Shown here: piece after piece, positions 10,331-54,002 of the stretch
Layout of the letters: each line of letters starts with the position of its first letter
Numbering within the stretch: the first letter of the stretch is position 1
Notes under the pieces: model-generated
Databases searched by the model: none
Told to the model about the DNA's origin: nothing
Seen by the model: only the letters and a program-made list of their open reading frames with translations
NCBI GenBank assembly: GCA_017557435.1
Contig: JAFYYR010000003.1
Span: 62,001-126,000 of the forward strand
From: Pseudobutyrivibrio sp.
GTDB taxonomy: Bacteria; Bacillota; Clostridia; Lachnospirales; Lachnospiraceae
Direction: 5' to 3'
Length of the DNA: 64,000 nt
Made by a program: the position numbers and the translations under genes

Positions 10331-11812
10331 TTACTTATCATAAATCAATGTAATTGAATTCTTGCCATAATAAACATTAGGCATTATAAATTCTTTGTCA
10401 TAAACAATGCTTGGATCTACAGCAAATCTCTCACCATCTGTTAATCCCATTTCGAAGAAATATCTGGTCCAATTCAGCTGCTTTTCCCTATGAATAACAA
10501 CATCCTCTTCCTCTGAGTTTTCTATCTCAAGCATTACTCCATCCCAGAAATTATAACTTTCTTGGATTAAGGCTCTATTTCTAAGAATATCTATTTGCAC
10601 AATATTTAGATAAGCATAATTCTGTATCAATGATACATATGTAAACATCAGAATAGCAGCTACTACGCCGACTCTTTCCTTACCAGAAAGATTTATCGAA
10701 AATTTAAATGAAAGCCACTGTCCTAAATAGATGCACATTAGTGCCAATCCAATCTCAATACAATAATCTAGAATATATTCCATTCTAATATCTAAATATG
10801 TATTTCTAAAATCTCTTCCATAAATATATGGAAGCATAGCACCAAATGTAATGATTACAAATAATACTGCTGTCTCTATTACAGCTTTGGGCTTTTCCAT
10901 ATCCTTATTAGAAATAATTCCAAGCACTACTAGAATCATTAGGATAACAACAGCCAAAGGATGGTCAACTAGCAAATCCTGTAATCTAACCACTATATCT
11001 ATAACTGTCTGAATCAAAGATCTAACAAAATTAGGCTGTAAATGATAGTATTCTCTGCGGGCAAAATTACCTGGTGAAAACACACATGATACACCTAAAG
11101 CAATATATAAAAGCAACGGTAGGGTATGCTTAATTTTTTGCTTGATGCATTCACTCTTTCTCTCGTTCCAATTTAAATAGTAAATATAGTAAAGATAAGT
11201 GATTCCCAAAAGTACATCACAAGTTTCTATTGTAGCTGGGAAAATACCAGCAACTATCATCAGAATGTAATATCTTTTCTTTTTATCTGGACACTCATTG
11301 TAATAAATCATGGCCCCTATAGTCACAAATGCCAATGCGACTGGTATTGGATATACCATAGCTCCAATGTACCAATTAAAGCATTCGCTATAATAGTATG
11401 TTGAATACAATAATGCCATTATTAAAAAAGTAACGGCATTAATATATTTACTTGTTCTACCTAATACTCTGCCAACAATTGCCTTGAGCCCGTATATTGT
11501 CAAAATAGTAGTGATTATAAAAACCACTATCATGTAGATTCCATACTTATGCCCGAGATGCTCATGGGAATTCAATGGATTAATAAGCATCTGAACTATC
11601 TGGCTAAGCCATCTGCCGCCCCAATCAGCCCACATAGAAAATCCTCTGTGCACAGACTGAGCAAATACATTACCTCCATTTACTCTAATAGCAGCAGCGA
11701 AATCATCACTGGCTGGTACTGAATAATATATGCAAAAAAACATAGGTAACATGACAACAAAATAACCTATGAATTCTAAAATCTTTCCTTTATTCTTCTT
11801 TAAAATATCCAA
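10331..11812 (-). CDS. DUF6056-like polytopic membrane protein (GT-C-like)
   Basis: 493 residues with about eleven membrane segments. The first outer loop reads SVPASDDFAAA (about 30-40) and is followed by GRWLSQ, an acidic pair plus GRW arrangement typical of DUF6056/GtrII-type membrane proteins found in polysaccharide loci. The start is TTG at 11812 with AGAGGAG 7 bases upstream. It is the first gene of the leftmost minus-strand run: the upstream 148 bases contain a good promoter (11864-11892), and the next gene upstream diverges. Probable outer-face glycosyltransferase; donor and acceptor unknown. Confidence 0.55.
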   Translation of the reverse strand: MDILKKNKGKILEFIGYFVVMLPMFFCIYYSVPASDDFAAAIRVNGGNVFAQSVHRGFSMWADWGGRWLSQIVQMLINPLNSHEHLGHKYGIYMIVVFIITTILTIYGLKAIVGRVLGRTSKYINAVTFLIMALLYSTYYYSECFNWYIGAMVYPIPVALAFVTIGAMIYYNECPDKKKRYYILMIVAGIFPATIETCDVLLGITYLYYIYYLNWNERKSECIKQKIKHTLPLLLYIALGVSCVFSPGNFARREYYHLQPNFVRSLIQTVIDIVVRLQDLLVDHPLAVVILMILVVLGIISNKDMEKPKAVIETAVLFVIITFGAMLPYIYGRDFRNTYLDIRMEYILDYCIEIGLALMCIYLGQWLSFKFSINLSGKERVGVVAAILMFTYVSLIQNYAYLNIVQIDILRNRALIQESYNFWDGVMLEIENSEEEDVVIHREKQLNWTRYFFEMGLTDGERFAVDPSIVYDKEFIMPNVYYGKNSITLIYDK

Positions 11813-19784: not shown

Positions 19785-20342
19785 TTATTTATCATCAAGC
19801 TTAAAAGCTGGTGAATCAGGTGTCTGAACTGCAACTGCTCCTGGCTTTGGTCCTACCTGACCTACCTGGAAATCATATACGCTGTAGATTGTAGCCTGCT
19901 TAGCCCAAGCATCATTTAAAGTAGGAACTACTCTCCATGACTGCTCCTTAAGGTGTGTAGCATAGTACATGTAGTAAGCAATGATATCATCACCAAACTG
20001 TGGCTGAAGATCTGTATTTCTAGATGCATATACATCTACGTTAAATGCTGCACTAGGCTGTCTCTCTTCCCAAATACCGCAGTTGATAAAGTGAGCAAAC
20101 AAGATATCATCAATTGCTGGTGTATAGTAGTCATATCCATAGAAATAAACTACATCCATGTATACTGTGCCATAGTATTTAGCATCAAATACAGTCTTGA
20201 TTGTAGCAATCTCATCTGCTGTAAGCTGTCTCTTGTAAGCATCTCCTCTGTTTGCTGCTGATACACTAACAGTGAATACTGAAAATGCCATAAACATAGC
20301 AAGTGCAAGGGAAACTATTTTTGTGAATTTAAACTTCTTCAT
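19785..20342 (-). CDS. Small secreted protein of unknown function
   Basis: 185 residues from the ATG at 20342, which has GAGGTGG about 5 bases upstream; an in-frame TTG 15 bases earlier lies inside that site and is rejected. A classical signal peptide is visible: a KKFKF start, a hydrophobic core, and a VSAANR cleavage region near residue 28. The mature part holds a tyrosine-rich repeat-like domain (FDAKYYGTVYMD, then FNVDVYASRN and FGDDIIAYYMYYA), recalling the short domain repeated in many Lachnospiraceae secreted wall proteins. It has no anchor motif. It probably has its own promoter (20414-20442). Function is unknown; a wall-associated or glycan-binding role is a guess. Confidence 0.7.
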   Translation of the reverse strand: MKKFKFTKIVSLALAMFMAFSVFTVSVSAANRGDAYKRQLTADEIATIKTVFDAKYYGTVYMDVVYFYGYDYYTPAIDDILFAHFINCGIWEERQPSAAFNVDVYASRNTDLQPQFGDDIIAYYMYYATHLKEQSWRVVPTLNDAWAKQATIYSVYDFQVGQVGPKPGAVAVQTPDSPAFKLDDK

Positions 20343-20413
20343 ATTTCCACCTCTCAATTATTTAATCTTACTAATACCTCTATTTTTGTTTCTGAGTATT
20401 ATCCTCTATTATG

Positions 20414-20467: not shown

Positions 20468-21436
20468 CTACACTATACCTGCTCCAAGAATTGCCTGCAT
20501 TCTGATAGTTCCAACTACCTTGCCTTCTTCCATAACAGGAAGACATGCAATATTTTTCTCTTTCATAATTGAAAGGGCCTCGTATGCAAGCTTACCACTT
20601 TCAATTGTCTTTGGATTAGCTGTCATAGCCTCTTTTGCAGACATCTCATATACGTTAGCCTCATTTTTAAGCATTCTTCTAAGGTCGCCTTCTGTAATTA
20701 CACCCTTAAGATCTCCCTTCTCATCAACTAAGGATACAAGGCCAAGTCCCTTATCACTCAGCTCAATAATAGCCTCTTTAAGAGATACATCCACTGAAAT
20801 AACTGCATTGCTATCACCAGAATCCATAAGGTCGTTCACTCTATAGATAAGCTTCTTGCCTAAAGCTCCAGCTGGATGGAACTTACCAAAGTCTGCATCC
20901 TTAAATCCATATACACCGCTGGCAACTACTGCAAGGGCATCGCCATAGCAAAGCGCTACTGTAGTGCTAGATGTAGGAGCAAGACCAAGATAACATGCCT
21001 CCTCAAAATCAGGAAGAATCTGTAAAATATCAGATGCTTCAGCAAGTGTAGAATTAGCATTGCCTGTAATACCAATAAGCTTTGCACCAATTAACTTAAT
21101 GGTAGGAAGGATTTTTACTATCTCATCACTTTCTCCACTAAATGAGATAGCGATTACCACATCATCCTTAGCAACCATTCCTAAATCTCCATGCATAGCC
21201 TCTGCTGGATGTAAGAAGAATGAAGGTGTACCAAGGCTTGAGAATGTTGCAGCCAGCTTCTCACCGATGTGACCTGGCTTACCCATTCCTGTGATTATTA
21301 CCTTACCGGTGCAGCTGATTACAGCCTTAAGAATCTCCTCAAACTCGCCATCAAGGGCATCCCTTGTTTTTTCAAGGGCTGCTATCTCTATATCAAATAC
21401 TCTTTTTGCTTCTTTGATAACATCAATTCTTTCCAT
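20468..21436 (-). CDS. kdsD: KdsD/KpsF/GutQ-type arabinose-5-phosphate isomerase
   Basis: 322 residues: a SIS sugar-isomerase domain (about 1-200) and a CBS pair (about 205-322), the standard KdsD/KpsF layout at the normal length. Diagnostic blocks are readable: GMGKPGHIG, the FFLHPAEAMHGDLGM stretch, FSGESDE, LAPTSSTT and FHPAGALGKKL. The family interconverts D-ribulose-5-phosphate and D-arabinose-5-phosphate, the precursor of Kdo. Kdo genes are normal in Gram-negatives but surprising here. It ends a three-gene unit with an aldolase (gap 48 bases) and a CMP-sugar transferase. No kdsA or kdsC homologue is in the window. ATG at 21436 with AAGGAAAG. The family call is firm; the pathway role is inferred. 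Confidence 0.88.
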   Translation of the reverse strand: MERIDVIKEAKRVFDIEIAALEKTRDALDGEFEEILKAVISCTGKVIITGMGKPGHIGEKLAATFSSLGTPSFFLHPAEAMHGDLGMVAKDDVVIAISFSGESDEIVKILPTIKLIGAKLIGITGNANSTLAEASDILQILPDFEEACYLGLAPTSSTTVALCYGDALAVVASGVYGFKDADFGKFHPAGALGKKLIYRVNDLMDSGDSNAVISVDVSLKEAIIELSDKGLGLVSLVDEKGDLKGVITEGDLRRMLKNEANVYEMSAKEAMTANPKTIESGKLAYEALSIMKEKNIACLPVMEEGKVVGTIRMQAILGAGIV

Positions 21437-21484
21437 CTACTTATATCTTTCCTTTTTAAAATGAAATATCTGTAAATAATAAGT

Positions 21485-22495
21485 CTATTTATTCTTTTTG
21501 TATTCCTGATATAGATTCTCTATATATTCCTCATTATAGTATTCAGCCTCGCTGCGCTCTACTCTAGAGAGGATTACATCAATATCTCTCATAGTAAGAT
21601 CTCCCTTGTTCATAAGGAACTCAGGATATGTACGATGTAAATCATAGTATGCACTCATGGCATATGGAAGCTTGAATCCCCATCCATATTTCTCATGAAG
21701 TGGCTGAATATACTCGCTAATCGCATCATATATTGCTGGGATATTATACCCCTGATCAAACTTATAGTTCATATACTCTGCAATCTGCTCAATCTTAAGA
21801 TTTCCTGGATCTCTACCCATTCCGATAAGAGAACCATCAATAACGTATTTACGGTCTGGATATCTCTTTTCAATAGCACGCTGAGCCATTGCAAAAGCAA
21901 GTCCAAGATTCTCATGAAGATGAATACCCATCTGAATATCCTTATCAAGATGCTCATTAACTAGGATAAATCTCTTCTCGAAATCCTCTAATCTCATATT
22001 TCCAAATGTATCAACCATAGAGAAAACTGTAGGATGAACCTCATTTACTCTCTTGATTACATTGATATATTCTTCGTCTGTATATACTGTACAGTTAACA
22101 GGATTCATAGATACCTGATAACCCTTCTTTAAAAGTTCTGTTGCTGTCTCACAAGCCCAGTCTAAAAGATGTCTCTTAAAGATAACTCTCACATACTTAA
22201 TTGTGCCATCACAATCTTCAATATGTCCAAGCAAGTCTGGCTTTTCAACCATTACTGCAATAGTTGACTGTCCCAAATCCTTTGGAAGAATTCTCTTAAC
22301 ATCCTCCATTGAATAGAATCTAGTATAGTCAGTTGAAAGTGGCTTATCCCACATAAAACCTACTTCAATAATATCTACCTTCGCCTCAACTAATTTTTCG
22401 ATTGTACCTGTGATTGTCTTTTCCCCATAATTACCACCAGTAATGTGGCCGCCATCACGAAGTGTACAATCTAATAAACGGTATTGGTTATTCAT
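21485..22495 (-). CDS. DRE-TIM metallolyase family aldolase (HMGL/DmpG-like)
   Basis: 336 residues. The N-terminus reads LLDCTLRDGGH, the signature of the DRE-TIM metal-dependent family (HMG-CoA lyase, isopropylmalate synthase, 4-hydroxy-2-oxovalerate aldolase). HLHENLG near residues 192-198 supplies the metal-binding HxH, and VDTFGNM fits the barrel. Members make or break C-C bonds through a metal-bound enolate, often of pyruvate. Here it lies between a KdsD-like isomerase and a CMP-sugar cytidylyltransferase (gap of 1 base). The attractive inference is that it joins pyruvate or an equivalent to a sugar aldehyde to make a 2-keto-3-deoxy acid, replacing KdsA/NeuB. ATG at 22495 with AAAGG. The substrate is not proven. 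Confidence 0.8.
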   Translation of the reverse strand: MNNQYRLLDCTLRDGGHITGGNYGEKTITGTIEKLVEAKVDIIEVGFMWDKPLSTDYTRFYSMEDVKRILPKDLGQSTIAVMVEKPDLLGHIEDCDGTIKYVRVIFKRHLLDWACETATELLKKGYQVSMNPVNCTVYTDEEYINVIKRVNEVHPTVFSMVDTFGNMRLEDFEKRFILVNEHLDKDIQMGIHLHENLGLAFAMAQRAIEKRYPDRKYVIDGSLIGMGRDPGNLKIEQIAEYMNYKFDQGYNIPAIYDAISEYIQPLHEKYGWGFKLPYAMSAYYDLHRTYPEFLMNKGDLTMRDIDVILSRVERSEAEYYNEEYIENLYQEYKKNK

Positions 22496-22496
22496 T

Positions 22497-23165
22497 TTAA
22501 TTACCTTTCTTTAACTGATTCATATATATAGCATTTGCAATCTCGAAGTCCTCAGCGTAATCGATATCTACTGCCTCGATTTCCTCTACTTCGCACATGT
22601 AAGGATTCTCTGAAGTACGAGAATGATTTCTAAGGAATGACTCTCTACTAAATACAAATGTAGAAGTAGTCTCAATATAAAATGGCTCCATATCCTGAGT
22701 TCTAGGAGGATTATACAAATCAAAGTTAAGTGGCTTACCATTTTTCCAGAAGAAAGTCTGCATCTTCTTAGCTGTGAATGCTGACTCATACTCGCCACTC
22801 TTAACATGGTCTACACAGTCCTTGATATGCTCGACTGTTACAAGAGGTGTAGTAACATGCTCAAGGAGATATACATCAGCCTCGATTGTCTTTACAAACT
22901 CCTCATAAATAAGACGTCCCTTTGTTGTCTTCTCATCTAAGAACTTTGGACGCTGAAGGAACTGAACACCCTCAGGAAGATAAGGAATAATAGCCTCATC
23001 TGAGCAATATACGTAAATCTCATCTACTGTCTTGTCTTCCTTAAGCTGAACAAGCTTCTTAAGAACTACATTAATAAGTGGAGTACCGTCTCCAAATTCC
23101 TTGATATTTTTGCCTGGAAGTCTCTCATTATTCAACTTAATAGGAACAAAAGCTACTGTCTTCAT
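22497..23165 (-). CDS. CMP-sugar cytidylyltransferase (NeuA/KdsB superfamily)
   Basis: 222 residues. The nucleotide-binding start reads VPIKLNNERLPGKNIK, a variant of the NeuA ARxGSKxxPxKN loop, and YCSDEA and EEIEAVDIDYAEDF fit the NeuA family C-terminal half. The family makes CMP-activated acidic sugars from CTP. It differs clearly from the second, canonical cytidylyltransferase at 40401-41099, so the locus probably activates two different acids. It begins the isomerase/aldolase unit and overlaps neither neighbour. ATG at 23165 with AGGAGATG; the 196 bases upstream hold palindrome 23194-23278. The likely product is a CMP-ulosonic acid made by the two following genes. Confidence 0.78.
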   Translation of the reverse strand: MKTVAFVPIKLNNERLPGKNIKEFGDGTPLINVVLKKLVQLKEDKTVDEIYVYCSDEAIIPYLPEGVQFLQRPKFLDEKTTKGRLIYEEFVKTIEADVYLLEHVTTPLVTVEHIKDCVDHVKSGEYESAFTAKKMQTFFWKNGKPLNFDLYNPPRTQDMEPFYIETTSTFVFSRESFLRNHSRTSENPYMCEVEEIEAVDIDYAEDFEIANAIYMNQLKKGN

Positions 23166-23361: not shown

Positions 23362-24780
23362 TTATTGGGAAGACAAAATACCATCTATAAAATTGCAAAT
23401 ATTTGTCATGGCGTTCGGTTCGAACATGCCATCTGGCTCTACAACACCTGCTGCATCTCTTTTGATTAAATCAACTACCTGCTCAGCATTATCTACAAGC
23501 GGAACATTTTTTTCTTTTATAAAATACTCCATATTAACAGCTGTGTCACCAAAATTTAAGAGAATTGTCTTACATCCAAATCCAATTCCCTCCCAGACTG
23601 AGGCTGTACGGGCACTGACAACAATAGAACTTTCAGCTAAATATCTAAATATATGCTCACCATTATTAGCAATCACCTCTAGCTTGTCTGTAGCTGTCCA
23701 TGGGTATCGCTTTTTATATGTAGCAAATTCAAATGGATGAAGCTTGTAGATTACTCTATATTCATCGCCAATTTCATCAGCCACCTGAGCTGCCACTTTA
23801 CTAATATCCTCGCCCTCATGAAGAGTAGAGATAAAGCATATTGTCTTATCCTGTCTAGGGTAAAGCTTCTTGTAGTGCTCACGCTGTCTTTCGAAAAATG
23901 GAAATCCCACAGTTATCATCTTAACTGACTCTGGAAGATGAACAATCGGAAGCTGTGTCTTGCTGTATATCAACTCATAATCTGGTAATTCTGGCAAGCT
24001 ATCCTCTGGATTATATTGCATTGGAGTATGAGTTGGGAAAGCAAATCCATGACTGTACTCGGCTGTTGGGATACCTCTCTCATGTCCTAATAAACTCATA
24101 GCATAGCTTTCCATTGTATAGTAACAAATCTCAATAATGAGTTTTGGCTTAGCCTTATCTAATATCTTGCCACAGTATTTTTTTGTAATATCTACATAGT
24201 AGATTCTATCTACTATTTCAGGAATAAGCTTTTCTTTTAAATCTGGACCAAATTCTTCCGCAGCCTTATCAAGCAATGGCCCAATTAGTTCTGTAACAAG
24301 CTGCGTTCTTCTCTGTCTTTTTTTCGTATTAAACTTTCTAGAAAGCTTAACAGCTATATTGGTCTTGAACGCCACCCTGTCAGTAAAATAGACATTGTCC
24401 ATTCCGTTTGGCTGGCAATGTCCATGATTCTCAGGATGCTCTAGAATGACACTATTGTATTTTTTTGCCACCTCATCACAATAGATGTCTTCGAAATATC
24501 CTGTGTCTACATTTTTAGTTCGCCTTCCATTTCCAATAAAAAGCACATCAACATTGCGATATCTAAATGGCTTAAGTGCATTAAGAGCCATGGTAAAAAG
24601 TTCTTTTTTAGTGTAGGATTCCTCTCCACCAGGCCCCTCTGTTTTATAGATTGCCTTCTTGATTGCATTGTGTATCTCATAACGGTAGAGTGCCCAGACA
24701 TGTAGACCTTCTATTTCTATTTTGTTGCACTGGTACTTTCTCTCAAACGCGAGAAAGTTCTCAATTGTAGGTTCCATCAT
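23362..24780 (-). CDS. GT-B-fold transferase resembling CDP-glycerol/capsular acid-sugar transferases
   Basis: 472 residues from ATG-ATG at 24780, with AAGGAA upstream; the longer frame to 24876 would run inside the preceding gene. The N-terminal half has LFIGNGRRTKN and EHPENHGH; the C-terminal half has FISTLHEGED, YKLHPFE (about 375-381), a SARTASVWEG stretch and LNFGD. The 'K-hydrophobic-HP-x-E' block followed by a small-residue acceptor loop recalls CDP-glycerol glycerophosphotransferases, polysialyltransferases and related capsule enzymes. It is cytoplasmic, with no membrane segment. It lies immediately upstream of the CMP-ulosonate trio after a 196-base gap, so it may be the transferase for that sugar. 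That link is inference. Confidence 0.6.
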   Translation of the reverse strand: MMEPTIENFLAFERKYQCNKIEIEGLHVWALYRYEIHNAIKKAIYKTEGPGGEESYTKKELFTMALNALKPFRYRNVDVLFIGNGRRTKNVDTGYFEDIYCDEVAKKYNSVILEHPENHGHCQPNGMDNVYFTDRVAFKTNIAVKLSRKFNTKKRQRRTQLVTELIGPLLDKAAEEFGPDLKEKLIPEIVDRIYYVDITKKYCGKILDKAKPKLIIEICYYTMESYAMSLLGHERGIPTAEYSHGFAFPTHTPMQYNPEDSLPELPDYELIYSKTQLPIVHLPESVKMITVGFPFFERQREHYKKLYPRQDKTICFISTLHEGEDISKVAAQVADEIGDEYRVIYKLHPFEFATYKKRYPWTATDKLEVIANNGEHIFRYLAESSIVVSARTASVWEGIGFGCKTILLNFGDTAVNMEYFIKEKNVPLVDNAEQVVDLIKRDAAGVVEPDGMFEPNAMTNICNFIDGILSSQ

Positions 24781-24784
24781 AATA

Positions 24785-25753
24785 CTAGGATTCCTTCTTT
24801 TCGTCCTCTTTATAAGTTCTCTCAGAAATAATATATCGAGGTCTCTGCTTAGTCTCCATGTATGTCTTACCAACATACTCGCCGATTACACCAAGCGAAA
24901 TAAGCTGGATACCACCAAGGAAACAGATGGCAACCATCATACTAGACCAACCTGTCTCAGTATTTCCAAGGAAATGCTGAACTATTGAATATACTAAAAG
25001 AACCAAGCTTATAAATGCTACAAAGATACCAAATCCAGTAATCATACGGATAGGCTTAACGCTAAGAGATGTAATACCATCAAAAGCAAGAGAAAGCATC
25101 TTTGAAAGTGGATAATGACTCTCGCCAGCGATGCGCTCATTTCTCGCATAATATACGCTTGTGCTCTTGAATCCTACAAGAGGGAACATTCCTCTAAGGA
25201 AGAGATTAACCTCTTTATAATTAGCAAACTCCTGAAGCACTCTGCTAGAAACAAGTCTATAGTCTGCATGGTTAAATACAACCTCTGCACCCATTTTATT
25301 CAGAAGCTTATAGAAGCTCTCTGCTGTAAATCTCTTAAAGAATGTATCTGTCTGACGGCTATTACGCACGCCATATACTATCTCACAGCCATCCAAATAT
25401 GCATCAACCATCTCATTCATGGCATTGATATCATCCTGACCGTCGCAGTCAATTGAAATAGTAATATCACAGAGCTCCTTGGCCTCCATAAGGCCAGCAA
25501 GCACTGCATTCTGATGACCACGGTTGCGGCTCTGAGTAATACCAATATAATGCTCATCCTGCTTAGCAAGATCCTTGATTATCTCCCATGTCTTATCCTT
25601 GGATCCATCATTTACAAACATAACTCGGCTCTTGTCATCAATCTTATCAAGGCTAACAAGCTCCTTAATCTTAGCCAAAAACTCTGGAGCAGTAATAGGA
25701 AGAACCTCTTCCTCGTTATAACATGGAATAACTATATAAAGTACTGGTTTCAT
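24785..25753 (-). CDS. GtrB/CsbB-type GT2 polyprenyl-phosphate glycosyltransferase
   Basis: 322 residues: a GT2 catalytic domain (about 1-230) and two C-terminal membrane segments (about 235-260, 273-295). Visible motifs are IVIPCYNEEE, the FVNDGSKDKT block, SIDCDGQDD (the DxD-type site) and a NHADYRL loop. The layout matches GtrB, CsbB and ArnC, which load a sugar from a nucleotide donor onto undecaprenyl phosphate. This is the only such enzyme seen, so it is the best candidate donor supplier for the many GT-C proteins of the left block. No GtrA/GtcA flippase was seen. The start is ATG at 25753 with TTGGAGAA; the in-frame TTG 18 bases earlier is part of that site. Confidence 0.85.
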   Translation of the reverse strand: MKPVLYIVIPCYNEEEVLPITAPEFLAKIKELVSLDKIDDKSRVMFVNDGSKDKTWEIIKDLAKQDEHYIGITQSRNRGHQNAVLAGLMEAKELCDITISIDCDGQDDINAMNEMVDAYLDGCEIVYGVRNSRQTDTFFKRFTAESFYKLLNKMGAEVVFNHADYRLVSSRVLQEFANYKEVNLFLRGMFPLVGFKSTSVYYARNERIAGESHYPLSKMLSLAFDGITSLSVKPIRMITGFGIFVAFISLVLLVYSIVQHFLGNTETGWSSMMVAICFLGGIQLISLGVIGEYVGKTYMETKQRPRYIISERTYKEDEKKES

Positions 25754-30345: not shown

Positions 30346-31116
30346 TTATTCTGTATATATGCCAGCGTCTGTAAGTTCCTGTTCTGTTGGAGCAGTAATA
30401 AGTACCGCTTTTAAACGGCCATAGAATACAAACATACTACCGCCTGCTGCTGCATGGGCATGACCATTTTCAAGTGCATCCTTCAAGTCAGAAATACCAC
30501 CTGCACCACCACAAGCTGTAACCGGAATGCTAACTGCCTCTACCACCTCATTGATAAGCTTGGTATCATAGCCTGTCATCATTCCATCTCTATCAATGCT
30601 GTTAAGGAAAATCTCACCTACACCTAGCTCCTCAGCATGCTTCGCAAGCTCTACTGGAGTCATATCTATAACTCTGGTGCCATCGCAAATTACGCATTTA
30701 TACTTGCCCTTTACGAGCTTAGCATCGATTGATGCCACAACAGACTGTGAACCAGCAAGTGCTACTGCATCCTTCACAAGCTGCTCATCCTCTACCAGGC
30801 TTGTATTTAAAACTACTTTCTCATAGCCGATAGCAAGAAGCTTTCTAACCTGATCAAGTGTCTTGATTCCTCCACCATAAGAAAGTGGCATAAATGCCTC
30901 AGATGCCATATCTGTAAGGAGCTCAAAATCTGGCTCAACACCTCTCTTGCTTGCTGAAATATCAAGCACCGCCATCTCATCAATACCCTTACGATTGAAA
31001 ATCTTGAGGGCATTAACTGGGTCTCCTAGGTATGTTGGCTTTTTGAAATTTATTGTCTTAATTAAGTCCCTGTCATCAATTAGAAGAACTGGGATAATTC
31101 TTGGTCTATTAAACAT
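30346..31116 (-). CDS. hisF: HisF2/AglZ-type cyclase subunit of the acetamidino-forming system
   Basis: 256 residues, a (beta/alpha)8 barrel of HisF length. PVLLIDDRDLIK near the start and VVASIDAKL near 128-136 supply the two catalytic aspartates; GGGIKTLD and the AAGGS phosphate loop are also present. No other his gene is nearby. Instead it lies beside hisH and an N-acetyl sugar amidotransferase, the arrangement known from Pseudomonas wbpG loci and the Campylobacter pseA region. There HisH/HisF deliver ammonia for converting an acetamido sugar to an acetamidino sugar. ATG with AGAGG. True histidine biosynthesis is unlikely. Confidence 0.85.
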   Translation of the reverse strand: MFNRPRIIPVLLIDDRDLIKTINFKKPTYLGDPVNALKIFNRKGIDEMAVLDISASKRGVEPDFELLTDMASEAFMPLSYGGGIKTLDQVRKLLAIGYEKVVLNTSLVEDEQLVKDAVALAGSQSVVASIDAKLVKGKYKCVICDGTRVIDMTPVELAKHAEELGVGEIFLNSIDRDGMMTGYDTKLINEVVEAVSIPVTACGGAGGISDLKDALENGHAHAAAGGSMFVFYGRLKAVLITAPTEQELTDAGIYTE

Positions 31117-31135
31117 AGCAACCTCTTAATATTTT

Positions 31136-31747
31136 TTAGCATTTCTTAACGAAATTCTCTAATAATCTCATTCCAAAATCATGGCTCTTTTCTGGGTGGA
31201 ACTGCACTCCGTATACATTGCCTTTATTTACAGCACATGCAAATTCATAGCCATAATCACAAGTCATCATCACATCTTCTGGATTAGCACATACTGCATG
31301 ATACGTATGTACGAAGTAATATCTCTGGCGTCCCTCAATTCCATCAAGAAGAGGTACGTCCTTTTTGAACTCTACAATATCCCATCCCATATGAGGAACT
31401 TTTAGATTAAGCTCTGCTGGAATGTTAAATTTCTTACACTCAAAATCAATTAGTCCAAGACCTGGAAGCTGTCCCTCCTCTGAACCGTTGCCAAGGAGCT
31501 GCATGCCAAGGCAGATACCAAGCATTGGCTTGCCATTTCTTGCCTCTTCCTTAATAAGGTCCACAAGGCCTGTCTCGTTCAGCTTACCCATACCTGCATC
31601 AAATGCACCTACGCCTGGCAGGATGATTTTGTCTGCTGATTTTATTTTCTCTGGGTCTGCAGTAATAACACTCTTCTCGCCTATAACTTTAAGCATGTTG
31701 GCAATGGAGCCTAGGTTACCTAGACCGTAGTTTATAATTGCAATCAT
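31136..31747 (-). CDS. hisH: HisH-type glutamine amidotransferase
   Basis: 203 residues, the normal HisH length. The class I glutaminase triad is complete: Cys79 in GICLGMQLLG, His184 and Glu186 in QFHPEK, with the oxyanion strand LPGVGAFDAG at 43-52. It releases ammonia from glutamine and channels it to its partner barrel. Its ATG is directly adjacent to the stop of the sugar amidotransferase gene, and the hisF-like gene follows 19 bases later, so the three are clearly a unit. Here the ammonia is expected to feed acetamidino formation rather than imidazole synthesis. Confidence 0.9.
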   Translation of the reverse strand: MIAIINYGLGNLGSIANMLKVIGEKSVITADPEKIKSADKIILPGVGAFDAGMGKLNETGLVDLIKEEARNGKPMLGICLGMQLLGNGSEEGQLPGLGLIDFECKKFNIPAELNLKVPHMGWDIVEFKKDVPLLDGIEGRQRYYFVHTYHAVCANPEDVMMTCDYGYEFACAVNKGNVYGVQFHPEKSHDFGMRLLENFVKKC

Positions 31748-32905
31748 TTAGAACCTCATGTTACGTTTTTCTATACCTAACAACTTACAAATCTTCAAGC
31801 CCAATTTGATTATCCACATAGAGTTTTTGTAGTCATCTGGGGTGTGGGCTGGGGAATTGATAATCTCGTCAAATTCCTCTGTTGTGATGCCAAGCTTCTT
31901 GGCAATATATTCCTTGTCCTGCTCCATCTGGTCTGTGTCGTATGGATTAGTCTTGAGCTTCTCAAGAGCCTCCTCGCGAGTCATTGTGCCAGCGAGAATC
32001 TGAGTTGAGAATACATTTTTTCTAGTATCAAAACCAAATTTATATGGAAGGTAATATCCCTCGAAGAATCTGGTGAATACATTCTCGTAGTGCTTGTTCT
32101 CGTATTTCATCCAGCCGTATTTCTCGTGAAGGAAATCCTCTGCCTTAGCCTTATCATAGACTACATAGTCAAGAGGATAGAATCTCTTCATTCCATACAC
32201 ATATTTGTAAAGCAGTCTATATTTTAAAATTCCACACTGTGGGTAGGTCTTGAATGGACGCTTACCAAACTTCTTGTGGATGTCATTATTCATTCTTTTG
32301 TCGTTCATATAAATCCACTCTACTGGTGGACGAACAAACTCTGTACTGTTATTAGAGCCTGTGAGAACCCATTTGATTTTATGCTTAACTGCATAATTGT
32401 AAAGAGAGGCAAATATAGCCTGATCCTGTGGAGCATCACAGCTACTGATGCCTGACTTAAACATAGCAAGCTGGAAGTCGCTCATCTCCTTCCAGTTGAT
32501 AACATCTGTGTACATATCAAGGTCAAGCCCCTTAACAATCTTCTCGATGTTCTCAACTGCTACATTAAGATTCCAGCCAGTATCTACAACGTAAATAAGA
32601 GGACGAAGGTGCATAATCTCCTTGGCAATATATGCAAGATATGAGCTATCTGCTCCACCTGACATACCAAGGATACAATCGTAATCCTTGCCCTCTCCAT
32701 CCTTGCGAATCTGAGCTGCTACTTTCTCAAGCTCCTCACGATTCTCCTTATTAGGATTCCAATATGGCTTTATATTTTTCTCAAAGTTACGACAGTGGTC
32801 GCAGACACCATTCTCATCAAATTCAATCATCGAATCTGTAGTGTCCATGACACACTGTGTACAGCGCTGATATTCTCTCTTTATCTTAGGAACATAAATT
32901 GGCAT
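31748..32905 (-). CDS. N-acetyl sugar amidotransferase (WbuX/WbpG/PseA family)
   Basis: 385 residues. Two Cys pairs at the N-terminus (CTQCVMDTT and CDHC) look like a zinc site. The ATP PP-loop reads LGMSGGADSSYLAY (about 79-92), and the rest matches the family that amidates an N-acetyl group to an acetamidino group with HisH-supplied ammonia. Known substrates are ManNAc3NAc-uronic acid (WbpG) and pseudaminic/legionaminic precursors (PseA/PtmG). With legB/C/I/F in the same locus, a legionaminic-type acid or its precursor is a good candidate substrate. ATG with a GAGG site; stop adjacent to hisH. The substrate is inferred. Confidence 0.88.
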   Translation of the reverse strand: MPIYVPKIKREYQRCTQCVMDTTDSMIEFDENGVCDHCRNFEKNIKPYWNPNKENREELEKVAAQIRKDGEGKDYDCILGMSGGADSSYLAYIAKEIMHLRPLIYVVDTGWNLNVAVENIEKIVKGLDLDMYTDVINWKEMSDFQLAMFKSGISSCDAPQDQAIFASLYNYAVKHKIKWVLTGSNNSTEFVRPPVEWIYMNDKRMNNDIHKKFGKRPFKTYPQCGILKYRLLYKYVYGMKRFYPLDYVVYDKAKAEDFLHEKYGWMKYENKHYENVFTRFFEGYYLPYKFGFDTRKNVFSTQILAGTMTREEALEKLKTNPYDTDQMEQDKEYIAKKLGITTEEFDEIINSPAHTPDDYKNSMWIIKLGLKICKLLGIEKRNMRF

Positions 32906-40400: not shown

Positions 40401-41099
40401 CTATTTGTTCTCAAATCTCTTTTGCATTAAGCACTTTGCGAATTCAAAATCAATTGGATAATCGATGTCGATTGAATCCTCGCGTTTCATAATGTAAGCA
40501 ACTGTGTTGTCACAGTAGTAAGTTCTCTTAGTCTTAAGCAAGTCATAATCTAAGATATAAATAGCACCATTAGGCACAATATATGTCTCGTTATTCTGAC
40601 GATTAGTCATTGTGATGCCCTGACCAAATCCCGCATTATGAACTCGACCATTTTCATCTAGCTTGTGATACCAGCTGGCTGGTACCTCTGCCTCTGCAAA
40701 TGAAATAAGAGTAGTGGCACCATCTGCCTCAAACTGAGCCAATGCCTTCTCAATATGAGTCTCATTTCTAAGAGGCACTGTTGGAAGAAGAACCATAAAC
40801 TTCTCAATCTGCTCACCGGTCTCGTTCATAACAAACTCTGTAGCATGAAGATAAACATCGATAGCTGAAGCTGTATCGCTTGAGAGCTCCGCAGGTCTCA
40901 TAAATGGAACCTCTGCGCCGTACTCTTTTGCCACCTTGGCAATTGTCTCGTCATCTGTAGTAACGATGACTCTGTCGATGCCCTTAGCCTTTTTTGCGGC
41001 CTCGATTGTCCAAGCAATAAGCGGCTTGCCGCAAATTTCTTTTATATTTTTTCCTGGAACTCCCTTGCTTCCGCCTCTAGCAGGAATAAATGCTATCAT
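40401..41099 (-). CDS. legF: CMP-legionaminic-acid-type cytidylyltransferase (LegF/NeuA family)
   Basis: 232 residues. The canonical CTP-binding start IPARGGSKGVPGKNIK is present, with TTDDE, RPAELSSD and the EDSIDIDYPIDF metal-binding end typical of NeuA/LegF. The enzyme activates a nine-carbon 2-keto acid to its CMP form in the cytoplasm. It directly follows the NeuB-family synthase (stop and start are adjacent), the standard pairing. With legB and legC present, a legionaminic-type acid fits better than sialic acid, though the sequence alone cannot tell the two apart. ATG at 41099 with GGGGTGA upstream. Confidence 0.85.
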   Translation of the reverse strand: MIAFIPARGGSKGVPGKNIKEICGKPLIAWTIEAAKKAKGIDRVIVTTDDETIAKVAKEYGAEVPFMRPAELSSDTASAIDVYLHATEFVMNETGEQIEKFMVLLPTVPLRNETHIEKALAQFEADGATTLISFAEAEVPASWYHKLDENGRVHNAGFGQGITMTNRQNNETYIVPNGAIYILDYDLLKTKRTYYCDNTVAYIMKREDSIDIDYPIDFEFAKCLMQKRFENK

Positions 41100-42149
41100 T
41101 TAAAAATCACCCCACTGGAATAACTCGTCGGCTGTTATGTCGCGCTTAAGTTCTTTGCCAATAAGCATCTCGTAGAACTTAGGTGAGATGGCTGTACCTG
41201 GACGCTTATAGTCAAGATCCTCCTCTGTAAGGATGTGGCCTGCCTTCATGTCGTGAGCTGCCACGATAGAGCGCTTGTACTCGCCTCTCTGATGCTCGCT
41301 CTCGTTAACTACCTTGCGGTAAGAGCCCATCATCTTATATCCCTGCTCTGCTGCATCGCAGATGATCTTCATCTCTTCAGGGTTAGCTGAAATCTTGTGA
41401 TCCCAGCCCTTCATATTTTTGTCCATTGTGAAATGCTTCTCGATGATGCAAACATTTTTAGCAATAGACATGATTGGTGCAACCACACCAAATGTATGAT
41501 CAGAGTATCCTGTAGGATATCCAAATGCCATACGGTACATGTCGATGTTGTTAAGATTAACCTGCTCGTCTGCTGGTGGATAGATTGATACGCAGTGAAG
41601 TACGCAAATCTCCTTACATCCGCCTGCTTCGATAGCTGCGATAGCATTAACCACATCATCCATACCTGTAAGACCTGTAGAAATAACAACTGGAACGCCC
41701 TTACTTCCGATGTACTTAAGGAATGGAACATTCTCAACATCCATAGAAGCTACCTTGATAAATGGAACATGAAGCTCATCTACAAGAAGGTCAACACCAG
41801 CCTTATCAAATGGTGTAGATGTGAAATCGATATCAAGCTCATCACAGTATGCCTTGAGCTCGAAATGCTGCTCACGTGTAAGTGCATAAGCCTCTACGAT
41901 TGACTCAAGTGTGTAGTCTGTACGATTTCTATAGTCGTCTCCAAGGAAGTAATTGTCCTCGTAGTTCTTCTTTGAAAATACATTGCTCTTTGTAAATGAC
42001 TGAAGCTTGATGCAGTCTGCACCGCACTCTTTTGCAGTCTTAATCATTGTCTTGGCAAGCTCCATATCACCATTGTGATTAGCTCCAAGCTCTGCGATAA
42101 CATATGGCTTCTTGCCACCTGCTACCATATCCTGATAATTAAATCTCAT
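41100..42149 (-). CDS. legI: Nonulosonic acid synthase (LegI/NeuB family)
   Basis: 349 residues: a PEP-condensing TIM barrel (about 1-275) and a C-terminal SAF/antifreeze-like domain (about 285-349), full family length. Motifs: VIAELGANHNGD, IKLQSF, FTSTPFD, IKVASMD, STGLTGMDD, GYSDHT and EKHFTMD. It condenses PEP with a 2-acetamido mannose-type sugar to a nonulosonic acid. The adjacent LegF-like gene would activate the product. The variant WDHKISA block is closer in feel to LegI/PtmC than to sialic acid NeuB. ATG with GGAGG 6 bases upstream. Its start overlaps the end of the GT2 gene by 11 bases. Confidence 0.87.
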   Translation of the reverse strand: MRFNYQDMVAGGKKPYVIAELGANHNGDMELAKTMIKTAKECGADCIKLQSFTKSNVFSKKNYEDNYFLGDDYRNRTDYTLESIVEAYALTREQHFELKAYCDELDIDFTSTPFDKAGVDLLVDELHVPFIKVASMDVENVPFLKYIGSKGVPVVISTGLTGMDDVVNAIAAIEAGGCKEICVLHCVSIYPPADEQVNLNNIDMYRMAFGYPTGYSDHTFGVVAPIMSIAKNVCIIEKHFTMDKNMKGWDHKISANPEEMKIICDAAEQGYKMMGSYRKVVNESEHQRGEYKRSIVAAHDMKAGHILTEEDLDYKRPGTAISPKFYEMLIGKELKRDITADELFQWGDF

Positions 42150-51627: not shown

Positions 51628-52794
51628 TTAGGACATGAAGGAGCGGATTACGTCTATTACGCGGTCGACGCCTTCTGGTGAAAGGTTGGTAGAGCAAGGA
51701 ACATTTACCACGCGTTTCCAGTACCATGGAGCCTTTACAAGGTCGTAAGTACGAGCTCCCTCATATGGAAGCTGGTCAGAGATAAGTCCCCAAATAGGAC
51801 GTGACTGAATGTGGTTCTCCTTAAGCTCCTCGATAAGGCGGTCGCGACCCTCCTCATCATTTTCAAATACAACTGAGTAGAACCAGTAATTGCTACGGAT
51901 TCCAGGTCTGAAATCCTGAACATGAAGTCCATCGATTTTATCGATAGCTTCCTTGTATCTATTGTAATTATCTGTTTTTGTCTTAATGAAATCCTCAAGC
52001 TGTTCAAGCTGAGCAAGTCCAAGTGCTGCCTGAAGATTAGTCATTCTATAGTTAAATCCAATCTCATCATGGATGAAATTAGCCTGATCCGCCTTAGCCT
52101 GTGTTGTAAGGTGCTTAGCATGAGCAAGCTCCTCAGGATTCTTAGCAACTATCATACCGCCACCACCAGTGGTGATAATTTTATTACCATTGAATGAGTA
52201 ACAACCGAAATCACCAAATGTACCAGCGAATCTACCAGCAAACTTACCCTCTGTATAGTAAGTACCAAGAGCCTCAGTAGCATCCTCAACAACTCTAATA
52301 TTATATTTCTCAGCGATAGGAAGAATAGCTTCCATATCTGCCATATTTCCAAATACATGAACAACTACCATGGCCTTGATATGACGACCTGTTGCTCTAT
52401 CTATAAGCTTGCCATCTGTGAAATCGCACTCCTCTTCACAGAACTTCTTAAGCTTAACTGGGTCCATGCAAAGGCTATCGTCACAGTCCATGAACACTGG
52501 CTCTGCGCCAATATACTTTGTAGGATTAACTGCTGCAATAAAAGTAAGAGTTGGAACAATTACAGCATCCTCTCTAGTCACACCACAAAGTAGCAAACTG
52601 ATATGAAGCGCTGAAGTACCATTTTGGGTGCTGACAGCCGCTGGCACATGTACATACTCTGCCAACTTCTTCTCAAAATCACTAACATAAGGACCTGCAG
52701 TGGAAACCCACTCTGTCTCTACAGCGTCAGTAACATACTTAAGTTCATTTCCCTTTAAATTTGGCACGGAAAGTGCAATAAATTCATCTGCCAT
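51628..52794 (-). CDS. legC: LegC-type sugar C4 aminotransferase
   Basis: 388 residues, full-length DegT/DnrJ/EryC1 fold. Visible blocks: STQNGTSALHISL (PLP phosphate loop), VEDATEALGTYY (ring-nitrogen Asp) and SFNGNKIITTGGGGM with the Schiff-base Lys. The N-terminus FIALSVPNLKGNE and the NGNK-ITTGGGG block are typical of the LegC family. It aminates C4 of the 4-keto-6-deoxy sugar made by LegB, using glutamate and PLP. It follows legB but is separated by a 227-base gap with palindrome E, and a matching palindrome D follows it. ATG with AGAGGTG. Confidence 0.9.
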   Translation of the reverse strand: MADEFIALSVPNLKGNELKYVTDAVETEWVSTAGPYVSDFEKKLAEYVHVPAAVSTQNGTSALHISLLLCGVTREDAVIVPTLTFIAAVNPTKYIGAEPVFMDCDDSLCMDPVKLKKFCEEECDFTDGKLIDRATGRHIKAMVVVHVFGNMADMEAILPIAEKYNIRVVEDATEALGTYYTEGKFAGRFAGTFGDFGCYSFNGNKIITTGGGGMIVAKNPEELAHAKHLTTQAKADQANFIHDEIGFNYRMTNLQAALGLAQLEQLEDFIKTKTDNYNRYKEAIDKIDGLHVQDFRPGIRSNYWFYSVVFENDEEGRDRLIEELKENHIQSRPIWGLISDQLPYEGARTYDLVKAPWYWKRVVNVPCSTNLSPEGVDRVIDVIRSFMS

Positions 52795-53021: not shown

Positions 53022-54002
53022 TTAGATGTTGTAGATATCCACCTTATACTTATCTAAGTTACCACGGAGGAATTCGATGGTCTCGGCAAGACCCTGCTCG
53101 AATGTGTAGCGTGGCTTCCAGTCTGTAAGCTCTAAAATCTTCTGGTTAGAGCCAAGGAGACGGTTAACCTCTGACTTCTCTGGGCGAAGTCTGTCTTCGT
53201 CACAGATGATACGTGCATTTGGATTAATCTGACGGATAAGCTCTTCAGCAAGCTGTCCGATAGAAATCTCCTTCTGTGTTGCAATATTGATTTCCTGACC
53301 GATTGTCTTATCGCTTTCATACATTGCGATGAAACCTGCGGCAGTATCTTTTACATAGTTGAAATCACGTGTTGGTGTAAGGCTACCAAGCTTAATCTCT
53401 TCCTTGCCTGCAAGAAGCTGTGTGATGATTGTTGGAATAACCGCACGAGCTGACTGACGTGGTCCAAATGTATTAAATGGACGCACGATTGTAACAGGCA
53501 AATCAAATGAACGATAGAATGACTCTGCAAGTCTATCGGCACCGATTTTTGTAGCTGAATATGGAGACTGTCCCTGGTATGGGTGCTTCTCATCGATAGG
53601 CACGTACTGTGCTGTACCGTAAACTTCTGATGTAGATGTAACAAGAACTCTTGCTGTACCAAGGTCTCTTGCTGCCTGAAGGATATTAAGAGTTCCCTTG
53701 ATATTAGTATCTACATATGCATCTGGGCTGTGGTATGAAAATGGAATAGCGATAAGTGCTGCCAAATGGAACACAGCGTCACATCCCTTCATAGCCTCAC
53801 GGACACCATTAGGGTCTCTTACATCACCTGCAAAGACCTCTACATGATCCATAATATCCTTTGGAAGTGTGTCTAACCATCCCCAGTTATTGAAGGAATT
53901 GTAGTACACAAATGCCTTTACCTCATATCCTTTTTTTACAAGCTCCTCAACCAAATGAGAGCCAATAAATCCATCTGAACCTGTAACTAAAACTTTACTC
54001 AT
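53022..54002 (-). CDS. legB: LegB-type NAD-dependent sugar 4,6-dehydratase
   Basis: 326 residues, extended SDR. TGSDGFIGSH opens the NAD site; VTSTSEVYGTA and YSATK give the Ser/Tyr/Lys set; NTFGPRQSARAVIPTII and TPTRDFNYVKDTA match the LegB family closely. It removes water from an NDP-GlcNAc (GDP-linked in Campylobacter) to form the 4-keto-6-deoxy sugar, the first committed step of legionaminic acid synthesis. ATG at 54002 with GGAGG upstream. It is preceded by palindrome F and followed by palindrome E, so it may be expressed as its own segment of the transcript. Confidence 0.92.
   Translation of the reverse strand: MSKVLVTGSDGFIGSHLVEELVKKGYEVKAFVYYNSFNNWGWLDTLPKDIMDHVEVFAGDVRDPNGVREAMKGCDAVFHLAALIAIPFSYHSPDAYVDTNIKGTLNILQAARDLGTARVLVTSTSEVYGTAQYVPIDEKHPYQGQSPYSATKIGADRLAESFYRSFDLPVTIVRPFNTFGPRQSARAVIPTIITQLLAGKEEIKLGSLTPTRDFNYVKDTAAGFIAMYESDKTIGQEINIATQKEISIGQLAEELIRQINPNARIICDEDRLRPEKSEVNRLLGSNQKILELTDWKPRYTFEQGLAETIEFLRGNLDKYKVDIYNI

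Follow-up and report, generated by a model that had tools for sequence, protein, structure and literature searches.

A DRE-TIM aldolase in the place of KdsA suggests a second way of making a Kdo-type sugar in Pseudobutyrivibrio

A 64,000-nucleotide stretch of the Pseudobutyrivibrio sp. draft genome GCA_017557435.1 (contig JAFYYR010000003.1, positions 62,001 to 126,000; hereafter the window) carries three adjacent genes for a cytidine monophosphate (CMP)-sugar transferase, a metal-dependent aldolase and an arabinose-5-phosphate isomerase. We consider it likely, with a fair margin of doubt, that this trio is an operon for a CMP-activated ulosonate of the 3-deoxy-D-manno-octulosonate (Kdo) type, in which the phosphoenolpyruvate (PEP)-dependent synthase KdsA is replaced by an unrelated pyruvate aldolase of the DRE-TIM kind. 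The basis of this reading is the gene order, the protein families, the conserved catalytic residues, the fold of the predicted aldolase model, the substitution of KdsA between the same partner families, the lack of a KdsA match in the draft genome and the presence of a KdsC-type gene; from these we infer the substrates, the product, its configuration at C4, the assignment of the phosphatase and the use of the sugar in a glycan. To our knowledge, the enzymes that make the ulosonic acids of glycans (Kdo, sialic, legionaminic and pseudaminic acids) draw on PEP through KdsA- or NeuB-type synthases. No aldolase in this role was found in the open-access literature as judged by titles or the beginnings of abstracts, which does not establish its absence from print, and the available part of PMC10919079 holds nothing on one.

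A compact three-gene cassette

The three genes are intact open reading frames (ORFs) on the minus strand of the window, transcribed in the order transferase, aldolase, isomerase, with a 1-base gap between the first two and a 48-base gap between the last two. The features are:

22497..23165, minus strand: CMP-sugar (cytidylyl) transferase, 222 amino acids (aa), first gene of the trio, NeuA/PseF-like branch of PF02348
21485..22495, minus strand: DRE-TIM (HMGL/DmpG-like) class II pyruvate-type aldolase, 336 aa, in the place of KdsA
22445..22459, minus strand: aldolase codons R13-D14-G-G-H17, aligning with DmpG R17, D18 and H21
21908..21922, minus strand: aldolase codons H192-x-H194-x-N196, with H192 and H194 aligning with DmpG H200 and H202
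20468..21436, minus strand: KpsF/KdsD-type D-arabinose-5-phosphate isomerase (SIS and two CBS domains), 322 aa, TIGR00393, Protein Data Bank (PDB) entry 2xhz; hereafter KpsF

ORF coordinates and family profile matches confirm the neighboring isomerase, DRE-TIM aldolase and CMP-sugar transferase named in an initial annotation of this DNA. The transferase matches PF02348 (39.5 bits against a cut-off of 22.6); its closest NCBIfam model is PseF, below the cut-off, and its PDB sequence relative is a NeuA. KpsF passes the kpsF subfamily model TIGR00393 (303.5 against 203.7 bits) and matches the E. coli arabinose-5-phosphate isomerase 2xhz at E 1.4e-45. Promoter-like sites around the trio show no excess over shuffled sequence (20 against 21.4). 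Chance assembly or gene fragments were rejected as explanations, since all three genes are adjacent in 6 of 29 genomes of the genus. KpsF is followed at window positions 19785-20357 by a gene for a protein of about 190 aa with a signal-like N-terminus, which has homologues in 11 of 13 genus loci (L235-L247).

The aldolase resembles DmpG over its full length

In Pfam the aldolase matches PF00682 (HMGL-like; 75.4 bits, cut-off 29) and no other family. Its best NCBIfam matches are models of 4-hydroxy-2-oxovalerate aldolase, both below cut-off (TIGR03217, 70.1 against 286 bits; NF006049, 78.3 against 229 bits), and because the curated cut-offs for DmpG-type enzymes are not reached, the protein is, on its profile scores, a distinct family within the DmpG superfamily. 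No KdsA, DAHP synthase or NeuB model of NCBIfam was matched, nor was PF00793. The sequence relatives in the PDB are DmpG-type aldolases and 3dxi, a putative aldolase (BVU_2661) of Bacteroides vulgatus from structural genomics; the title of 3dxi specifies an N-terminal domain, so this protein may belong to the fused form of the aldolase described below.

Residues R13, D14 and H17 are presumably, by analogy with DmpG, the catalytic arginine, a metal ligand and the catalytic histidine, and we take H192 and H194 to be the metal ligand pair. H192, H194 and N196 are invariant in 38 of 38 aligned sequences, and the three DmpG metal ligands all have counterparts in D14, H192 and H194. The predicted model aligns with DmpG throughout, TIM barrel and C-terminal helical domain included, and the structures that match it best over the full length are pyruvate aldolases of the DmpG type. 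The HMG-CoA lyases listed cover only about residues 1-273, the barrel, and on this ground we rejected the identification of the protein as an HMG-CoA lyase. With the 4-hydroxy-2-oxovalerate aldolases DmpG, HsaF and AmnG (1nvm, 4lrs and 8ih7) the trio aldolase shares the full-length fold, the D/H/H metal ligands and the presumed catalytic arginine and histidine, but it is only about 20% identical to them, has no adjacent aldehyde dehydrogenase gene and is encoded in a glycan cluster, among genes for sugar phosphates and CMP-sugars.

KdsA and the aldolase occupy the same slot

We compared the locus among 29 Pseudobutyrivibrio genomes, in which some loci have cut contigs or broken frames. An upstream set (HisF2, two glycosyltransferases, FemAB, WaaS/CpsH, a PgfS-like glycosyltransferase, a 504-aa protein and the CMP-transferase) recurs in most of the loci compared, and the genes downstream of the CMP-transferase vary. 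In the source genome (G000) and in G153, G715, G702 and G695 the CMP-transferase is followed by the aldolase and then KpsF. G707 has KpsF between CMP-transferase and aldolase, so the trio stays together through a rearrangement. The aldolase is 94 to 100% identical in five of these six genomes and 68% in G707; Pseudobutyrivibrio sp. YE44 (L122) has a near-identical locus with an aldolase 98% identical. Five further genomes (G692, G700, G712, G694 and G693) carry in this slot a 519- to 523-aa aldolase fused to a domain of about 190 aa, without KpsF, and G711 (L247) carries an aldolase followed by split transketolase halves.

In G703, of the same genus and with a different flank, the order is CMP-transferase, KdsA, KpsF; its KdsA passes TIGR01362 (405.9 against 314 bits), and its KpsF and CMP-transferase are 69% and 50.5% identical to the window copies. 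The same order is found in two other genera of the family, in G103 and in G022, where KdsC follows. In all three the gene preceding kdsA-kpsF belongs to the same CMP-transferase family as that of the trio, so that the trio aldolase stands where KdsA stands. This comparison lends support to the central idea of the initial annotation, a PEP-independent route to a CMP-ulosonic acid in which the aldolase would fill the bond-forming slot. KpsF is present in 8 of the 29 genus genomes, beside a trio-type aldolase in 6 and beside KdsA in 2 (G694 and G703), and the two kinds of operon never overlap.

Across a sample of 299 genomes of the family, KdsA passes its cut-off in 7. G264 has KdsB-like, KdsA and KpsF genes followed by KdsC; G184 and G116 have one gene between KdsB-like and KdsA; G292 has KpsF, a 431-aa CMP-transferase-like protein and KdsA; and G052 has KdsA without KpsF nearby. 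KpsF passes its cut-off in 10 of the 299: six are in KdsA genomes, two are with the trio and two (G250 and G269) lie beside a protein of about 1015 aa. The KpsFs of the source genome and of the other four closest trio genomes form one clade in a tree of the family, which makes a fork with the KdsA-linked copies of G703 and G022 (support 91/99, not starred); G707 and G103 sit on separate unresolved branches.

KdsC accompanies the aldolase

The source genome is a 2.84-Mb draft in 29 contigs, 96.2% complete, and holds no KdsA (TIGR01362) match at E<=1e-3, so that no KdsA encoded elsewhere was found that might act with the trio. Its single PF00793 match (L001) is a 343-aa ORF that reads by eye as DAHP synthase; with no TIGR01362 match, it was rejected as the missing KdsA. 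The initial annotation had noted neither kdsA nor kdsC in the window, and this holds: the sole KdsC match (TIGR01670, 144 bits against a cut-off of 107) lies on another contig (G000:C7:13893-14357) among genes read by eye as dapA and upp.

Among genus genomes at least 90% complete, KdsC occurs in all 17 that have an aldolase relative and in none of the 4 that lack one (p 1.7e-4); over all 29 the counts are 19 of 20 and 2 of 9. KdsC is on another contig or more than 100 kb from the aldolase in 18 of the 19 genus genomes that have both and is adjacent in G696, where CMP-transferase, fused aldolase and KdsC stand in a row elsewhere than in the slot. In the family sample an aldolase relative is found at E<=1e-20 in 84 of 299 genomes, 14 of which, with only distant matches, are left out of the set used for co-occurrence with KdsC and KdsA. 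Stand-alone KdsC occurs in 24 of the 299, a count that sets apart 6 genomes with a KdsC frame of at least 200 aa (aldolase in 1 of 6, no association). The aldolase is present in 20 of these 24 against 50 of the other 275 (Fisher p 1.2e-10); 21 of the 24 lack KdsA, and 19 of those 21 have the aldolase.

Proposed pathway and comparison with known systems

In the proposed pathway, KpsF would convert ribulose 5-phosphate to D-arabinose 5-phosphate. In the aldolase, D14, H192 and H194 would bind a divalent metal and R13 would stabilize the enolate of pyruvate; addition of pyruvate to the aldehyde of arabinose 5-phosphate would give a 3-deoxy-octulosonate 8-phosphate, either Kdo-8-phosphate or its C4 epimer. 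The phosphate would then be removed by a KdsC-type phosphatase whose gene lies outside the cluster, and the cytidylyltransferase would form the CMP-sugar for a surface glycan built by the cluster. Pyruvate is the likely nucleophile because aldolases of the DRE-TIM kind act through its enolate. Central metabolism does not commonly supply arabinose 5-phosphate, which would explain why the cassette has its own isomerase. Pyruvate aldol additions are reversible and close to equilibrium, so this step would need the pull of an irreversible phosphatase and of cytidine triphosphate, which fits the association with KdsC. The new C4 center would be set by the aldolase, and Kdo and its C4 epimer are therefore not distinguishable here. 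The operon logic points to one of these two, and the product is probably Kdo-type; the new 2-keto-3-deoxy acid suggested in the initial annotation finds no support.

In the classical Kdo pathway, as the available text of PMC3149649 describes it, KdsD makes arabinose 5-phosphate, KdsA condenses it with PEP, KdsC dephosphorylates the product and KdsB activates it. The genome with the trio resembles this system in having an arabinose-5-phosphate isomerase, a KdsC-family phosphatase and a CMP-sugar synthetase, in an operon frame like that of the KdsA loci G703, G022 and G103; it differs in the DRE-TIM aldolase in the place of KdsA, the NeuA/PseF-like CMP-transferase and the location of KdsC outside the cluster. 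Kdo-type genes in a Gram-positive are shared with Bacillus coahuilensis m2-6, whose classical island of kdsA, B, C and D with kpsC uses KdsA, according to the accessible part of PMC4744853. The NeuB, PseI and LegI nonulosonate routes have the logic of CMP-ulosonate synthesis in common with the trio, but use an unrelated PEP-dependent synthase, which is present separately in the window.

Relatives of the aldolase beyond the genus

From named contigs we examined the best 80 of at least 577 candidate loci, a choice biased toward close relatives, and counted as near those genes within 3.5 kb on the same strand, a zone that makes up 51% of the sequence. In six loci (L142, L144, L155, L166, L167 and L188) the aldolase was located by tblastn, a longer ORF overlapping it there; all 80 are counted. 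A cytidylyltransferase is near the aldolase in 68 loci and a KdsC-like gene in 43, and 43 of the 44 same-strand KdsC-like matches fall in the near zone. Another HAD phosphatase without KdsC is found in 11, and a cytidylyltransferase together with a HAD phosphatase in 46. KdsA is near the aldolase in none, one match to the KdsA query lying farther off in one locus; KpsF is near it in 1 (YE44, a Pseudobutyrivibrio), and cytidine diphosphate (CDP)-sugar or thiamine diphosphate (ThDP) genes occur in 5. One KdsB-like and one KdsC-like neighbor that were scanned pass TIGR00466 and TIGR01670, respectively. Glycosyltransferases of the sialyltransferase kind lie near some relatives, one passing PF07922 (GT52) and another with a sub-threshold polysialyltransferase match; PDB sequence searches with two neighbor proteins of related loci gave nothing informative. 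In 71 of the 80 loci the aldolase carries the extra C-terminal domain of about 190 aa, which the window aldolase lacks. For two fused aldolases, one extension had no Pfam match and the other sub-threshold matches only (MptE-like, E 0.12); an example lies at L054:3862-4389, minus strand.

A cytidylyltransferase stands beside the aldolase in Lachnospiraceae, Gemmiger, Paenibacillus, a Spirochaetaceae, a Bacteroidales and an Akkermansia metagenome-assembled genome, for which binning may err; the Treponema locus L161 has an aldolase without this partner. A Leisingera plasmid record is annotated with an aldolase, a 3-deoxy-manno-octulosonate cytidylyltransferase and a HAD hydrolase in a row. Plasmids gave 86 records with aldolase matches, the best among those listed at 31% identity, and phages gave 5 weak records; two loci from these searches, L100 and L101, were examined. 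In an even sample of the phylum, 13 of 398 genomes match the aldolase profile at E<=1e-40, in 8 of 267 genera.

The 128 aldolase ORFs compared include some duplicates. In a first tree of 121 aldolases, that of the window falls in a 42-row clade with full support (Shimodaira-Hasegawa-like approximate likelihood ratio test, SH-aLRT, 100), made up of 30 CMP-linked, 6 KdsC-only, 4 unlabelled and 2 mixed rows and none purely CDP/ThDP-linked. In a stricter tree of 87 of these rows, with nine long-branch or odd rows left out and near-copies thinned, the smallest supported sets around the window aldolase consist of CMP-linked rows only. The trees call for at least 6 and 5 switches between CMP and CDP contexts, and 30 of the 121 members have CDP-sugar/ThDP context (25 CDP only, 5 both).

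We lean, by a modest margin, toward regarding these DRE-TIM aldolases as an independently evolved class of ulosonate-phosphate synthase found over several phyla, which would provide CMP-ulosonates without PEP. Its modules would pair a cytidylyltransferase with the aldolase, in many cases alongside KdsC or a different HAD phosphatase, and the attached cassette (KpsF, fused domain or transketolase pair) would set the acceptor. The class would span the lineages named above with a cytidylyltransferase partner and an alphaproteobacterial plasmid, Pseudobutyrivibrio showing the KdsA swap directly.

Other arrangements were also seen. Fused aldolases occur with RfbF, RfbG and/or RfbH (CDP-dideoxyhexose), a ThDP enzyme and often a HAD phosphatase in L052, L041, L106-L111 and L118-L121; L052 (G000:C14:42002-62000) is in the source genome just outside the window. 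Such loci may make long branched-chain sugars by way of an aldolase and a decarboxylating ligase. RfbH, two parts of a transketolase and an aldolase match stand next to one another on the Desulfobaculum plasmid L100. In L124 a 245-aa ORF at 10517-11254, RraA-like by eye, separates a fused aldolase from a NeuA-like/KdsC-like pair. A third, more distant aldolase relative in the source genome lies in a 349-aa frame at G000:C27:179806-180693 (L226).

Evidence against the proposed pathway and alternative explanations

Several observations weigh against a Kdo-type operon with an exchanged synthase. By model, the transferase is not KdsB (no match to TIGR00466), and KpsF stays below the cut-off of the KdsD equivalog NF008141 (326 against 505). 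Carboxyltransferase domains (pyruvate carboxylase and its kin) also align over the full length of the aldolase model, at lower Z (22-25). The aldol step is reversible, and KdsC of the source genome lies outside the trio cluster. The exclusion of kdsA by the trio, which the initial annotation had proposed to check, stands for the operons of the genus but not for genomes: of the 7 family genomes with KdsA, 3 (G052, G116 and G264) contain an aldolase relative too, and within the genus G694 holds KdsA plus a fused aldolase elsewhere. The co-occurrence tests make no correction for common descent, and outside the genus KdsC frequently shares a locus with the aldolase. The family is patchy, given 13 of 398 phylum genomes, and with CDP-sugar/ThDP genes in a quarter of the tree (30/121) it is not tied to CMP-ulosonates. 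KpsF is seen beside the aldolase only in Pseudobutyrivibrio, so arabinose 5-phosphate cannot be the acceptor of the whole family, and the fused aldolases without KpsF and the transketolase of G711 make other acceptors possible even within the genus. The enzymology, finally, is read from genes and their comparison.

Doubt about the acceptor leads to the strongest alternative, in which the aldolase joins pyruvate to another aldehyde (e.g. mannose 6-phosphate, ribose 5-phosphate or erythrose 4-phosphate) to give another CMP-ulosonate, and KpsF feeds a separate D-arabinose residue. The family evidently works without arabinose 5-phosphate, as KpsF is near the aldolase in only one of the best 80 loci, and one scanned KdsC-like member resembles a KDN-9-phosphatase, below cut-off (NF058599, 155.8 against 180). 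In addition, the KpsF homologues of G250, G269 and G288 (in G288 slightly short of the cut-off) adjoin the protein of about 1015 aa, which is fucokinase/pyrophosphorylase-like by eye and suggests that arabinose 5-phosphate can feed an arabinose route. However, KpsF in the genus always adjoins a synthase, either KdsA or a trio-type aldolase (8/8), and in the tree the KpsFs of the trio fall with KdsA-linked copies and away from the three that adjoin the large fusion. We therefore think this alternative unlikely for the trio; at other loci the acceptor could be mannose 6-, ribose 5- or erythrose 4-phosphate. The loci of G250, G269 and G288 (L102, L103 and L104) may hold a D-arabinose activation route starting from arabinose 5-phosphate, and a Cof-like HAD is present in L102 and L103.

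It is less probable still that the aldolase acts on a different keto acid, or on an acyl-CoA in a Claisen-type reaction, like HMG-CoA lyase or isopropylmalate synthase, for a non-ulosonate sugar modification, its place being a coincidence of cassette shuffling. Acyl-CoA enzymes do exist among DRE-TIM enzymes, and CDP-dideoxysugar and ThDP genes lie beside some relatives, but the CoA enzymes align with the model over the barrel only, H17 has its counterpart in the DmpG histidine, and the cytidylyltransferase and KdsC partners are typical of ulosonates.

Other glycan genes of the window

A second set of ulosonate genes is present in the window, separate from the trio:

40401..41099, minus strand: NeuA/PseF-type gene, below equivalog cut-off
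41100..42149, minus strand: NeuB-type synthase adjoining the NeuA/PseF-type gene, best match TIGR03569 (330.1 against a cut-off of 399.65)

From its family membership the NeuB-type synthase would use PEP, and the absence of PEP-dependent ulosonate synthesis that the initial annotation implied is not borne out. LegC (51628-52794) and LegB (53022-54002) both pass their cut-offs. Together, the NeuB- and NeuA-type pair and the Leg genes beside the trio suggest that two CMP-ulosonate routes share one glycan cluster. An acetamidino-transfer set at 30346-32905 comprises HisF2 and WbuX, over cut-off, and HisH, read by eye. The NeuB- and NeuA-type pair and the Leg genes offer a weak rival, kept only as such and in our view very improbable, in which the CMP-transferase of the trio serves a NeuB-type product and the other two trio genes are remnants or have no part in it. 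A NeuA-type gene of its own lies next to the NeuB-type gene, on which ground the service of the latter to the trio was rejected, and a trio kept in 6 of 29 genomes at the aldolase identities given above is unlike remnants.

Upstream, the CMP-transferase adjoins a further gene:

23362..24876, minus strand: candidate GT-B glycosyltransferase, 504 aa, no Pfam match at E<=10

The true start of this protein is probably near 24780, since most genus homologues have about 470 aa. It has an invariant K-L-H-P stretch and is kept beside the CMP-transferase across most genus loci; a homologue lies once beside a KdsB-like gene and an aldolase (L125), and that of G692 (L239) is split in two frames. VIA-align matches of the predicted model include MurG, UDP-GlcNAc 2-epimerases and TarL, and Foldseek adds the polysialyltransferase 5wcn and TagF. 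A PDB sequence search gave nothing informative. The model points to a GT-B fold, and the protein is a candidate glycosyltransferase.

Implications

If the aldolase of the trio does take the role of KdsA, it would be a case of non-orthologous replacement and would explain genomes that have kdsC-type genes without kdsA, most of which in this family carry the aldolase (19/21). The trio suggests an unrecognized second way of making a Kdo-type surface sugar, and predicts that Kdo-like acids may be present on the surfaces of gut Gram-positive bacteria that searches for kdsA would have missed.

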